Below, one piece after another: positions 2,323 to 15,755 of a stretch of DNA of 24,951 bases. The position numbers and the translations under genes are program-made. The notes beneath the pieces are model-generated. The model was not told the origin of the DNA, did no database searches, and saw nothing but the letters and a program-made list of their open reading frames with translations. Source of the stretch: a virus; IMG/VR virus record IMGVR_UViG_3300022929_000185, positions 1 to 24,951 of that record; one strand, given 5' to 3'. Each line of letters starts with the position of its first letter. Position 1 is the first letter of the stretch.

Positions 2323-2556
2323 ATGACCCTTAGAGAACTAGAACCACAAGATATGCACCTGACCTACGGCAATCCTGTTTCGTGGCTGGAGACCATCTGG
2401 CTAGCTCTGGATGAACACAGAGAAATGCACAACGATGATGAACGGTGGGATGACATATGTTCAGCCATGACTTGGATAGCTGAGTCAATGGGAATAGAGT
2501 ACGACGAATACGGTGACCTAGTGAAAACACGGGAAGCTGTAGACCAAGACACCTAA
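2323..2556 (+). CDS. Hypothetical acidic protein, 77 aa
   Basis: An acidic, Trp-rich and mostly helical product (MTLRELEPQDMHL, then WLETIWLALDEHREMHNDDE) follows the methyltransferase-like gene by 21 bases. The ribosome-binding site is weak (AGAGA or GAG stretches), so the exact start is less certain than for its neighbours. No domain is recognised. It is the last gene before a possible promoter/leader region at 2563-2592. Function unknown. Confidence 0.55.
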   Translation: MTLRELEPQDMHLTYGNPVSWLETIWLALDEHREMHNDDERWDDICSAMTWIAESMGIEYDEYGDLVKTREAVDQDT

Positions 2557-2562
2557 TTGGTG

Positions 2563-2592
2563 TATACTTGAACCCTAAACTAAAAGCCTAGA
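2563..2592 (+). promoter_or_regulatory. Candidate promoter -10 and repeated leader motif
   Basis: TATACT (2563-2568) resembles a sigma70 -10 box, but the -35 region is poor. It is followed at 2577-2592 by AAACTAAAAGCCTAGA. A near copy (14 of 16 bases identical) lies at 8926-8941, also in an intergenic leader before an AAAGG ribosome-binding site. The recurrence suggests a transcription-start or leader element rather than coding sequence. It is untested. Confidence 0.35.
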
Positions 2593-2607
2593 TGGAAAGG
2601 AAAACAC

Positions 2608-2892
2608 ATGGCCTTACAAGTAGTATCAAACGAGTACCAACCAACAGCAATGCCACTGACACAGCAGTTGCCCTGTCTTGTACGCAACCGATTGACAGGT
2701 GACATTCTGTTAGCACGAAAGTCTTATGCTGTAGCTGGCGTACAAGAACGTAACATCTCTCTGGTTGTACTGCAACCATCTGGTAACTCTGACCTAGACA
2801 TAGGACAACAGGTATCCCAGAAGGAATCAGACTTTGAGAACAGTTACTTGCTGCACGAAGCTGATGTAACTTTACGCAACGAAACAGTCTGA
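2608..2892 (+). CDS. Hypothetical protein, 94 aa
   Basis: AAAGGAAAAC before the ATG gives a good ribosome-binding site. The product looks beta-rich: strands such as LPCLVRNRLTGDILLARKSY and NISLVVLQPS are followed by an acidic C-terminal tail. There is no signal peptide or membrane helix. It is the first gene after a leader with a candidate promoter, so it may head its own transcript. I do not recognise the family. Confidence 0.6.
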   Translation: MALQVVSNEYQPTAMPLTQQLPCLVRNRLTGDILLARKSYAVAGVQERNISLVVLQPSGNSDLDIGQQVSQKESDFENSYLLHEADVTLRNETV

Positions 2893-2906
2893 TAGTACAA
2901 CTATAG

Positions 2907-2981
2907 ATGGACTGGTTGTTTGTGATAGCAGTGGGTGTGAACGTACTATACTATGTGATATTATTGTCACACTCTAAATAA
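2907..2981 (+). CDS. Predicted single-pass membrane peptide, 24 aa
   Basis: A 24-codon frame, ATG to TAA, begins 14 bases after the preceding gene. Its product MDWLFVIAVGVNVLYYVILL and a short polar end is nearly all one hydrophobic helix, long enough to cross a membrane, with Lys at the C-terminus. Such tiny membrane peptides occur in phage early regions. The ribosome-binding site is weak, so this is a candidate only; a chance frame cannot be excluded. Confidence 0.35.
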   Translation: MDWLFVIAVGVNVLYYVILLSHSK

Positions 2982-2990
2982 AAAAGAAAT

Positions 2991-3136
2991 AGAAGGGTCT
3001 TGAAAGGTAAACTACAAAAGCCATCTAATAGTAATACTACTAGTAAGTTCTATTAGAAATAACTTATGTTTCTTTATCTCTTATAAAGATAATATAATAT
3101 AAGTATATACTATTAGTATTACCTTAAGACCCTTCT
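2991..3136. repeat. AT-rich nested inverted repeat, possible origin or structured RNA
   Basis: The outer arms are AGAAGGGTCTTGAAAGGTAA (2991-3010) and TTACCTTAAGACCCTTCT (3119-3136), complementary except for a 2-base bulge. An inner pair follows, CTAATAGTAATAC (3025-3037) with GTATATACTATTAG (3103-3116), which has one bulged base. Within the loop lie AAGTT/AACTT (3045-3049/3061-3065) and TTATCT/AGATAA (3074-3079/3087-3092). The core 3024-3120 is about 82% A+T by my count, in a genome that otherwise looks roughly 45% G+C. No gene covers it. It could be a replication origin, a cruciform, or a long folded RNA. Confidence 0.6.
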
Positions 3137-3164
3137 TGTAGTTCAAACTAAAGGTATGGATAAG

Positions 3165-3386
3165 ATGACCAAAGAAGATAAGGAACCAAAAGAATATGAC
3201 TCCATTGGTCATTTCTTACAGGAAAACAACAACCCAGAAAGTATGTCGTACATCATTGAGATGTTGTTAGAACGTGTCGTTGATATGCAGGAGTTCATGC
3301 TTGAGAATGGATTATCAGAGGAAGATTACTTTGAATGGAAAGAGAAGAACGACAACCTAAACCAATTCAAGAACTACTTGATGTAG
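3165..3386 (+). CDS. Hypothetical acidic helical protein, 73 aa
   Basis: Two in-frame ATGs exist. The one at 3156 stands one base from the AAAGG site (3150-3154), too close for use. The one at 3165 has 10 bases of spacing, so I prefer it (MTKEDKEPKEYDS). The product is strongly charged and mostly helical (MSYIIEMLLERVVDMQEFML, then EEDYFEWKEKNDNL), with no known motif. It is the first gene downstream of the nested inverted repeat. Function unknown. Confidence 0.6.
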   Translation: MTKEDKEPKEYDSIGHFLQENNNPESMSYIIEMLLERVVDMQEFMLENGLSEEDYFEWKEKNDNLNQFKNYLM

Positions 3387-3431
3387 TTTATGAACACGAC
3401 GATGTCACACACTGGATAGGAAAGTTAGACC

Positions 3432-3608
3432 ATGCAGACAGCAGCAAAGAAAGTAGAAAGCCTACACACTCTGATCGTTCAGACAACAAAGAAGATTGAT
3501 GACTTGGAGTGGGACGGTAAGCTACAGCAAGCAGACAAACTGCGGGTACACCTTGACGAATACCTAGACTTGTTCGATAAAGGTGAGGTATACTACCCAC
3601 TGTTCTAA
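3432..3608 (+). CDS. Small hypothetical protein, 58 aa
   Basis: The ATG at 3432 has AGGAAAG about 9-13 bases upstream, and the frame is complete to TAA at 3606. The product reads as two charged helices (MQTAAKKVESLHTLIVQTTK and WDGKLQQADKLRVHLDEYLD) and ends GEVYYPLF. This small two-helix form is common in phage accessory genes. No specific family is recognised. Confidence 0.55.
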   Translation: MQTAAKKVESLHTLIVQTTKKIDDLEWDGKLQQADKLRVHLDEYLDLFDKGEVYYPLF

Positions 3609-3633
3609 CTAAGATAAGAAAGGAACACACACG

Positions 3634-3888
3634 ATGTATTTGGATATGGTTAATGTAGCTCTGCTTGGATTTGGTGGTCTGACAGCATACCTTTTGTACC
3701 TCAACTACAGCTACGACAAAGAGCTTGAGAGAGTAGACGACAACATGCAACGCATTGCTGATGCCCTCAATGATCTTATCAATAAGCACAACGCCGCATC
3801 ATCTCGTATGGAATCTATGCTTGAGGTGATGATGGAGGAACTGGACAGATTAGAAGAGGAAGAACCCCAGGATGGAAAAGATAAGTAA
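3634..3888 (+). CDS. Membrane-anchored coiled-coil protein, 84 aa
   Basis: A hydrophobic segment at about residues 4-24 (MVNVALLGFGGLTAYLLYL) is followed by a long charged helix with heptad-like spacing (ELERVDDNMQRIADALNDLI onward) and a highly acidic end. One N-terminal membrane helix with a long coiled coil is the shape of an inner-membrane spanin (Rz type), and also of many unrelated phage membrane proteins. There is no partner outer spanin or lysis gene beside it, so I do not assign lysis. AAGGAAC precedes the start. The 3' end overlaps the next gene by 17 bases. Confidence 0.6.
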   Translation: MYLDMVNVALLGFGGLTAYLLYLNYSYDKELERVDDNMQRIADALNDLINKHNAASSRMESMLEVMMEELDRLEEEEPQDGKDK

Positions 3889-4093
3889 GTACATCAACAG
3901 AGTTCTGACAGCACTGTCTGTACTGCTCAACGTCCTGTTAGGTGGAGACAACAACCAAACCTTTAGTGCTAGGAATTGGCACTGGAAAAAGAATAACAAA
4001 CCCCACATCGTCTGGCTAATAGACTGGATCTTAAGTGACGATCACTGTATGGAGTGCTGGGTGTACTGGAAAGTAAGGAAGAAATGGAAATGA
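3872..4093 (+). CDS. Small conserved-looking phage protein, 73 aa
   Basis: It overlaps the preceding gene by 17 bases and ends in an ATGA overlap with thyX. After a short amphipathic N-terminus comes LTALSVLLNVLLGGDNNQTF, then SARNWHWKKNNKPHIVWLID and a Cys-Trp-rich, basic end (DHCMECWVYWKVRKKWK). The LNVLLGG-xNQTFSAR core followed by a D-HC-x-W segment recalls a small protein seen in many tailed phages, to my memory, with no assigned role. A membrane association is possible from the hydrophobic N-terminal helix. Confidence 0.6.
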   Translation: MEKISKYINRVLTALSVLLNVLLGGDNNQTFSARNWHWKKNNKPHIVWLIDWILSDDHCMECWVYWKVRKKWK

Positions 4094-4764
4094 TTGAAGC
4101 AACATACATTGACCACATGGGATCTGACCTGTCAGTGGTAAACGCAGCACGGGTGTCTTTTGGTAAGAAGAGCACCTTTGAGGGTAGAGTAGGCGGTCCT
4201 AACGTCTTAGCTGATCGGGATGCCAAGCTGATTAAGTACCTAGCCAAGCACAAGCACACCAGCCCATTCGGTCATGCCTTTGCATCTTTCCACGTCAAAG
4301 CACCAATCTTTATAGCACGGCAGTTGGTCAAGCATAAGTTCCTGCGTTGGAACGAGATCAGTCGTCGTTACGTTGATGATGAACCTGAGTTCTATGTGCC
4401 TGACCAGTGGCGTGGGCGCAGTGCTGACAAGAAGCAGGGGAGTTATGGTGTAGTTGAGTTAGAAGAGTTCACACTAAAGTCAGGACACTATCCATACGAC
4501 ACACCCGAAGAATTAGGACTAGAGGTGTACAAGAAACTGCTTGAGCAAGGTGTAGCCCCAGAGCAAGCACGGATGGTACTACCACAATCAACCATGACTG
4601 AGTGGTACTGGTCTGGATCACTAGATGCCTTTGCTGCTATGTGCCAGCTACGGTGCAAGCCTGACACGCAGCTAGAGACACGACTGGTGGCTGAACAGAT
4701 TGATGATAAGATGATTGAGTTATTCCCTGTATCGTGGGAAGCACTGAGATCATACGAGGAATAA
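4090..4764 (+). CDS. thyX: Flavin-dependent thymidylate synthase ThyX, 224 aa
   Basis: ThyX makes dTMP from dUMP using methylene-tetrahydrofolate and FAD/NADPH. Supporting features are the N-terminal VVNAARVSFGKKS, the HTSPFGH block (56-62) typical of the folate/flavin region, and KHKFLRWNEIS (81-91) followed by RRY. That segment occupies the ThyX signature RHR-x7-S but has Lys at both Arg positions. The length, 224 residues, suits the family. Start choice: ATG 4090 overlaps the upstream stop (ATGA) and gives MIEATYID; ATG 4084 and an upstream in-frame ATG at 4054 are alternatives. With MazG and RNR downstream it would supply dTMP for phage DNA. Confidence 0.93.
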   Translation: MIEATYIDHMGSDLSVVNAARVSFGKKSTFEGRVGGPNVLADRDAKLIKYLAKHKHTSPFGHAFASFHVKAPIFIARQLVKHKFLRWNEISRRYVDDEPEFYVPDQWRGRSADKKQGSYGVVELEEFTLKSGHYPYDTPEELGLEVYKKLLEQGVAPEQARMVLPQSTMTEWYWSGSLDAFAAMCQLRCKPDTQLETRLVAEQIDDKMIELFPVSWEALRSYEE

Positions 4765-13516: not shown

Positions 13517-13593
13517 CCACCCTTAGCTCAACTGGATAGAGCAGCCGACTTCTAATCGGCAGGTTGTAGGTTCGAGTCCTACAGGGTGGGCCA
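13517..13593 (+). tRNA. tRNA-Arg (anticodon UCU), CCA encoded
   Basis: A full cloverleaf folds by eye. The acceptor is CCACCCT with AGGGTGG (7 pairs), then TA and the D arm GCTC/GAGC. The anticodon arm GCCGA/TCGGC has loop CTTCTAA, anticodon UCU. The T arm is GTAGG-TTCGAGT-CCTAC, followed by discriminator G and an encoded CCA (13591-13593). It reads AGA arginine codons and would supplement host tRNA. It sits inside the operon between the DUF1289 and glutaredoxin genes and has no integrase beside it. Confidence 0.95.
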
Positions 13594-15499: not shown

Positions 15500-15506
15500 G
15501 GTGCCT

Positions 15507-15755
15507 ATGGAGCAGAAACCAAAACGACCAAGAGGTAGGCCACCTAAAAAGAAAACCCTTGAGCAGGAAGCCCAAGAGTTCTTGAAGAAAGATAATACGG
15601 ATAGTACTCCTCCAGGGCAGGTTGCTTTGGGGGACTACTTTGCTGGATGTGCATTGAGTGGATTGATATCATCTGGCAGGTATCTACGGTCTGACGAGAT
15701 CATAGATGAAGCATTCAGGTATAGTGAACGAATGCTTGAAAAGAAAAATAAGTAG
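15507..15755 (+). CDS. Small protein with AT-hook-like basic N-terminus, 82 aa
   Basis: I choose the ATG at 15507 with an AGG ribosome-binding site; a GTG at 15501 is the alternative. Residues 5-14 (KRPRGRPPKK) contain the PRGRP core of an AT-hook, which binds the minor groove of AT-rich DNA. The rest is a helical region with a Gly/Ala stretch (GDYFAGCALSGLISSGRY) and a charged end. It is the last gene of the rightward arm, just before the terminator. It may bind phage or host DNA, but a short basic motif can occur by chance. Confidence 0.6.
   Translation: MEQKPKRPRGRPPKKKTLEQEAQEFLKKDNTDSTPPGQVALGDYFAGCALSGLISSGRYLRSDEIIDEAFRYSERMLEKKNK

Follow-up and report, generated by a model that had tools for sequence, protein, structure and literature searches.

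A conserved A+T-rich inverted repeat made of dyad sites, a candidate promoter-operator array of CRP-9/CRP-13-type phages

The inverted repeat at positions 2991-3136 and its dyad sites

The analysed stretch of viral DNA (24,951 nt of an IMG/VR contig, hereafter the window) contains at positions 2991-3136 a non-coding inverted repeat, which is present once in the contig and has an A+T content of 75%, compared to 55% for the window overall. It is flanked by a 24-codon ORF and by an ORF beginning at position 3156 (Table 1). A reading of the DNA made from the sequence only had described here a nested inverted repeat without a gene, and no forward ORF of at least 40 aa was detected over the element. 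The core, estimated in that reading at about 82% A+T, is A+T-rich with the slightly lower value of 79% across positions 3010-3125.

The outer arms, for which about 18-20 bases had been proposed, form 18 pairs, and 11 nt of them are perfectly complementary (AGAAGGGTCTT / AAGACCCTTCT). The inner arms turned out to be shorter than the proposed 13-14 bases, with 9 perfectly matching nt (3025-3033 / 3108-3116). In the minimum-energy fold of the RNA this inner pair is replaced by two internal hairpins, 3024-3057 and 3062-3104. The T-rich centre with a CTCTTATAGA-like sequence is also present in relatives. The RNA fold of the region 2971-3156 reaches -45.5 kcal/mol compared to -28 +/- 3.7 kcal/mol for dinucleotide shuffles (z -4.7, 0/200). 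The inverted repeat is real. Free energy alone is unremarkable for this contig, in which other segments of 146 nt fold better; the distinguishing trait of the element is its A+T-richness combined with long-range symmetry.

The repeat unit is the dyad TACTNNNAGTA, i.e. TACT-3-AGTA. The window harbours six mirror-arranged sites, two of which are perfect while one has a single mismatch, two have 2 mismatches and one has 3 mismatches. Their starts are spaced by 12 and 13 bp in the left group and by 13 and 12 bp in the right group. With 2-3 mismatches each, the outer sites would be too weak on their own. The nested inverted repeat results largely from palindromic sites being placed as mirror images. 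The sequence TTGAAA at positions 3000-3005, within the conserved CTTGAAA box, is a possible sigma70 -35 hexamer. Together with the candidate -10 hexamer it would constitute a weak promoter, TTGAAA-N18-TCTAAT; this pair was not reported by a stricter promoter scan.

Table 1. Features of the element and of neighbouring or possibly related genes in the window
Feature	Position	Strand	Remarks
One-helix membrane microprotein, 24-codon ORF (MDWLFVIAVGVNVLYYVILLSHSK)	2907-2981	+	no Pfam or PHROGs match
Left outer arm	2991-3010	.	18 pairs with 3119-3136, 2-nt bulge on the left
Conserved CTTGAAA box	2999-3005	+	CTTGA(A/C/G) or GTTGA in the same place in aligned relatives
Dyad-like site 1, ATCTAATAGTA	3023-3033	.	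2 mismatches to TACTNNNAGTA
Candidate -10 hexamer TCTAAT	3024-3029	+	18 nt past TTGAAA; 5/6, without A at position 2
Dyad 2, TACTACTAGTA	3035-3045	.	perfect
Dyad-like site 3, TTCTATTAGAA	3048-3058	.	2 mismatches
Central T-rich hairpin, between the two dyad groups	3062-3104	.	folds
Dyad 4, TAATATAAGTA	3095-3105	.	1 mismatch
Dyad 5, TACTATTAGTA	3108-3118	.	perfect
Right outer arm	3119-3136	.	pairs with 2991-3010
Degenerate dyad-like site 6, TACCTTAAGAC	3120-3130	.	3 mismatches; mirrors the position of site 1; weak alone
76-aa acidic protein, first gene past the element	3156-3386	+	family ending ...DLQEFM..W..YH
thyX, begins the nucleotide/replication gene block	4090-4764	+	match to annotated thyX genes
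84-aa protein, AT-hook-like N terminus	15501-15755	+	AT_hook 15.2 bits, below the cut-off

Conservation of the element in related phages

The sequence-only reading had made its proposal dependent on conservation and compensatory changes in relatives. Relatives were gathered via thyX and via the primase-helicase, and A+T-rich, strongly folding intergenic DNA was searched. As a rule, an element had to contain a CTTGA(A/C/G) box, two or more TACTNNNAGTA dyads each deviating at no more than one position, and an A+T content of at least 68%. The rule was applied to 46 loci that extend far enough upstream and whose helicase shows at least 66% identity; they correspond to about 16 groups below 80% identity. 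In 45 of the 46, such an element precedes the helicase gene by 1.5-3.3 kb and is thus conserved in position, and 833 kb yielded a single match at another place. In L048, which did not comply, there is an A+T-rich repeat whose dyads are degenerate. Since the rule was derived from the same loci, the weight rests on the low background and on the independent scan described below.

In 48 elements we counted 196 TACTNNNAGTA dyads, while 30 were expected according to dinucleotide shuffles; outside the elements, the same loci contain 302 dyads in 523 kb. The most common spacing is 12 bp (56 pairs), followed by 14 bp. Many early elements harbour a second conserved dyad, TGACA-3-TGTCA (TGACANNNTGTCA), which precedes the CTTGA box by approximately 15-20 nt. 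When the element alone was used as query, a nucleotide search retrieved a weak match to the second element of CRP-9 and chance matches, but nothing else, and a scan of viral contigs with a 15-mer (CTAATAGTAATACTA) was unspecific. The same 3.3 kb are present with zero differences in a second contig.

In three loci (L011, L048 and L066) the element is followed by a tRNA-Arg gene, and therefore translation control is not its shared function. In L011 and L048 this gene lies directly past the element and is followed by a tyrosine recombinase gene. The window has its tRNA-Arg (TCT) at 13517-13593, while in most relatives checked it is located between the element and thyX.

A different A+T-rich inverted repeat was observed directly before the helicase gene in four loci (L012:9226-9286, L050:3666-3745, L055:7724-7855 and L080:6742-6873). 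Their helicase is more distant (about 36%), and the repeat has different palindromic words.

A second dyad cluster precedes the late operon

A second dyad cluster is present in each of the nine near-complete clade genomes checked, 4-7 kb upstream of the element. It lies in the early/late intergenic region before the leftward late operon, the first gene of which is 'gp73'. A clear cluster is found in CRP-9, G001, G002, G003, G004, G005 and G009. CRP-13 and G008 have a weaker one, with 2 and 3 mismatches, respectively, under the tandem pattern, although many single dyads are present in the leaders of these two.

The late leaders of several relatives contain a perfect TTGACA-N16-18-TATAAT, and their first dyad begins at the -10 hexamer or immediately behind it. 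A strong promoter with TATAAT at or adjoining the first dyad was found in 9 of 19 late leaders, which together harbour 20 strong promoters compared to 2.5 expected from shuffles. In the mid-early elements, including that of the window, the -35-like box is kept, and the -10 match amounts to 3.9 of 6 positions versus 3.4 by chance. Six loci (L338, L370, L371, L378, L388 and L407) have a second promoter, TTGAC(T/C)-N16-17-TATAAC, just upstream of gp73, which is close to the start codon and downstream of the array.

For the independent scan, 2.9 million viral contigs were searched for exact matches to two dyads 12 bp apart. Among the matches listed, 31 of 80 carry genes of these phages, and in 26 of those 31 listed loci the array is closely followed by a gp73 homologue. 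At up to 2 mismatches, the tandem array was found in 11 of 12 clade records and in none of 17 records of cobaviruses, HMO-2011-type phages and other thyX-bearing roseophages. It is absent from the true cobaviruses SIO1, ICBM1, ICBM2, P12053L, CRP-4 and CRP-5. The comparison with SIO1-like phages in the sequence-only reading thus holds for the type of the replication genes, but does not extend to the array.

The polymerase encoded in the window shows 73-76% identity to those of CRP-9, CRP-13 and G001, versus 41% to those of SIO1 and ICBM1, and one of its late proteins has a weak match (22-26%) to CRP-13 and G001 and none to the cobaviruses tested. Phages of the CRP-9/CRP-13 type combine cobavirus-like replication genes with HMO-2011-like particle genes (PMC8528129) and infect the marine Roseobacter RCA lineage. 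In the literature searched we found no description of the element, and no account of expression timing or of the replication start site in these phages.

The HMO-2011-type phages CRP-1, CRP-2, CRP-207, CRP-345 and CRP-603 also have promoter-like sequences and palindromic words upstream of their gp73 homologues (L438-L442), but the word in these late leaders is other than TACTNNNAGTA. Found by eye and by a simple scan, with no statistics attached, it is TTAACATTAATGTTAA in CRP-2 and ACATTTAAAGTGT in CRP-1. No mid-early array matching that of the clade was found in these five phages. This suggests that putative operator words differ by lineage.

A probable promoter-operator array

Judged from its sequence and distribution, we consider it fairly likely that the element is a conserved cis-acting promoter-operator array, which heads the replication operon (the thyX-primase/helicase-polymerase block) and the late operon and is bound by a putative regulator. 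Through such an array, a single DNA-binding protein probably times the course of infection. The promoter-like lead, with CTTGAAA and the -10-like sequence, would run into TACTNNNAGTA sites placed 12-13 bp apart in two mirror groups around the T-rich centre. A phage-encoded dimeric DNA-binding protein could occupy these sites cooperatively, since with the 12-bp pitch adjacent sites would face almost the same side of the helix. By looping of the two groups or by their forming a cruciform, this protein may then repress or time initiation by the host RNA polymerase, both here and at the copy before the late operon, and the expression of replication and late genes would thereby be coupled. Promoter activity in the window, the existence and identity of the binder and the sign of the regulation are what we infer from these patterns. 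Against this reading speak the -10 match of the early elements, which is barely above chance, and the TCTAAT of the window, in which the key A is missing. The non-dyad outer arms, moreover, pair in several members, which simple operators would not need.

Operator arrays of phage and plasmid regulators of the ribbon-helix-helix or HTH type, e.g. MetJ boxes or lambda OL/OR, are similar in that short palindromic sites with a fixed helical pitch overlap or adjoin promoters, which is clear here in 9 of 19 late leaders of relatives and weak in the early elements, and in that the same word occurs at two transcription units per genome. The element differs from them by its two mirror groups, which form an inverted repeat of about 110-150 bp with a T-rich centre, and the likeness comes from general knowledge and not from a sequence match. 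The dyad word at two operons can be used as a bait for finding the regulator and the origin, and as a sequence marker of this phage group in metagenomes.

Origin of replication as an alternative

The first alternative, which we regard as possible but rather improbable, is a replication origin, as already considered in the sequence-only reading. The dyads would then be iterons for an initiator, or RNA that starts at the lead promoter and crosses the A+T-rich DNA would prime a T7-like replisome. The DNA is A+T-rich and non-coding, contains iteron-like repeats and immediately precedes the replication genes, which fits this. Furthermore, the phage encodes a Toprim-DnaB primase-helicase, a family A polymerase, a gp2.5-like SSB and endonuclease I, and the mid-early copy occurs in phages with this replication module. 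Since this replisome is T7-like, a transcription-primed origin has its place among the explanations. On the other hand, no GC-skew switch was detected across the element in 27 loci with genes in the same orientation (15/27 positive, mean difference 0.015), although short-lived lytic replication may leave no trace in the skew. Also against an origin, the second copy precedes the late operon and is oriented with its transcription, and no initiator gene was recognised.

The primary origin of phage T7 consists of the promoters phi1.1A/B and an A+T-rich region. Similarly, a promoter-like sequence here leads into an early A+T-rich intergenic region of a genome with T7-type replisome; the differences are the dyad array, the second copy at the late genes and the lack of a detectable phage RNA polymerase gene in the window. 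Iteron origins (lambda O, plasmid Rep) share with the element the tandem short repeats at A+T-rich DNA upstream of replication genes, but here the units are palindromes with a spacing of 12 bp, copies exist at two operons and there is no adjacent initiator gene.

Pairing of the two halves at the level of DNA or RNA

Compensatory change was analysed with an alignment-free comparison of own and cross pairing. Because the split point in its first version favoured own pairing, the splits were fixed in a second version, which also included a reversed control. Summed over 16 sequences, left halves paired with their own right halves yielded -449 kcal/mol, compared to -346 +/- 20 kcal/mol with those of other phages (0/20,000 permutations), while the reversed control showed no effect. 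In the first version, the outer segment alone also preferred its own partner (3/20,000 permutations). The halves thus co-vary, as the sequence-only reading had anticipated for a functional structure, and the paired structure seems to be maintained; template-switch correction of palindromes could contribute to this. Kept pairing would also be expected of a DNA cruciform.

The co-variation also bears on the second alternative, an RNA leader on the plus strand (a structured 5'-UTR acting as processing site, stabiliser or HK022 put-like cis antiterminator) at the start of two operons, which we consider unlikely. In line with it, arm mismatches show a mild excess of G-T over A-C (39 vs 24), the structure ends near a start codon or tRNA, and in the subgroup of the window the plus strand often has the more stable fold (L212 -57 vs -46, L061 -48 vs -33, L299 -46 vs -37 kcal/mol). 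Overall, however, neither strand is preferred (18/32), and in the window itself the minus strand folds better. Moreover, the arms share a sequence-specific dyad beyond mere complementarity, and covariance models of Rfam 15 gave no match in the region 2400-4000 up to E = 1. RNAalifold detected little covariation in MAFFT alignments of subgroups, because the arrays of different members fall out of register in them. At the clear promoters TATAAT abuts or overlaps the first dyad; transcription is thus predicted to start inside the array, and its 5' end would not be transcribed, which also speaks against an RNA leader. Of the origin or long structured RNA proposed from the sequence only, conservation and co-variation were corroborated, the origin lacks support from GC skew, and a promoter-operator array at the DNA level is favoured over RNA because of the 12-bp-spaced dyads, the copy before the late operon, which adjoins consensus promoters in several relatives, and the equal folding of both strands.

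Still more doubtful appears to us a paired DNA switch, in which the two mirror arrays of each genome, by looping or as cruciforms, would act as operators and transcription-primed origins at once. One protein would then couple the start of replication to late expression in phages seemingly devoid of an RNA polymerase of their own, with a word varying by lineage. Finally, a functionless selfish or mutational palindrome (a MITE-like repeat, or a quasi-palindrome perfected by template switching) is highly improbable: terminal inverted repeats in A+T-rich, non-coding DNA would suit it, but the single copy in the contig, the absence of dispersed copies, the same gene neighbours in 45/46 loci, the likewise fixed position of the second copy and the conserved word with fixed spacing contradict it, and fixed synteny together with motif conservation largely refutes it.

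Candidate binding proteins and neighbouring genes

Returning to the promoter-operator array, two proteins are candidates for its binder due to their co-occurrence with it, which is a correlation. The family of the acidic protein encoded by the first gene past the element is present in 9 of 10 clade genomes and in none of the 15 outgroup genomes tested; its predicted structure is helical, at low confidence. The 84-aa protein with the AT-hook-like N terminus co-occurs with the array in 9/10 clade and 0/10 outgroup genomes, and its role as a binder is speculative. The product of gp73 was considered and rejected: its AlphaFold model (pLDDT 86.6) had no convincing PDB match to a DNA-binding protein, and a second look gave low Z. 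In addition, gp73 alone is less likely to define the array, since outgroup phages without the array have homologues.

For the microprotein encoded upstream of the element no match in Pfam or PHROGs was found. Hydrophobic one-helix ORFs of 21-27 aa are located upstream of the element also in L061, L263, L272, L273, L279, L290, L296 and L299. Amid the late genes of the window, the minus-strand gene at 23616-24038 matches the HlyC/RTX acyltransferase family (Pfam PF02794, E 5e-19) and probably encodes a virion-associated acyltransferase-like protein.
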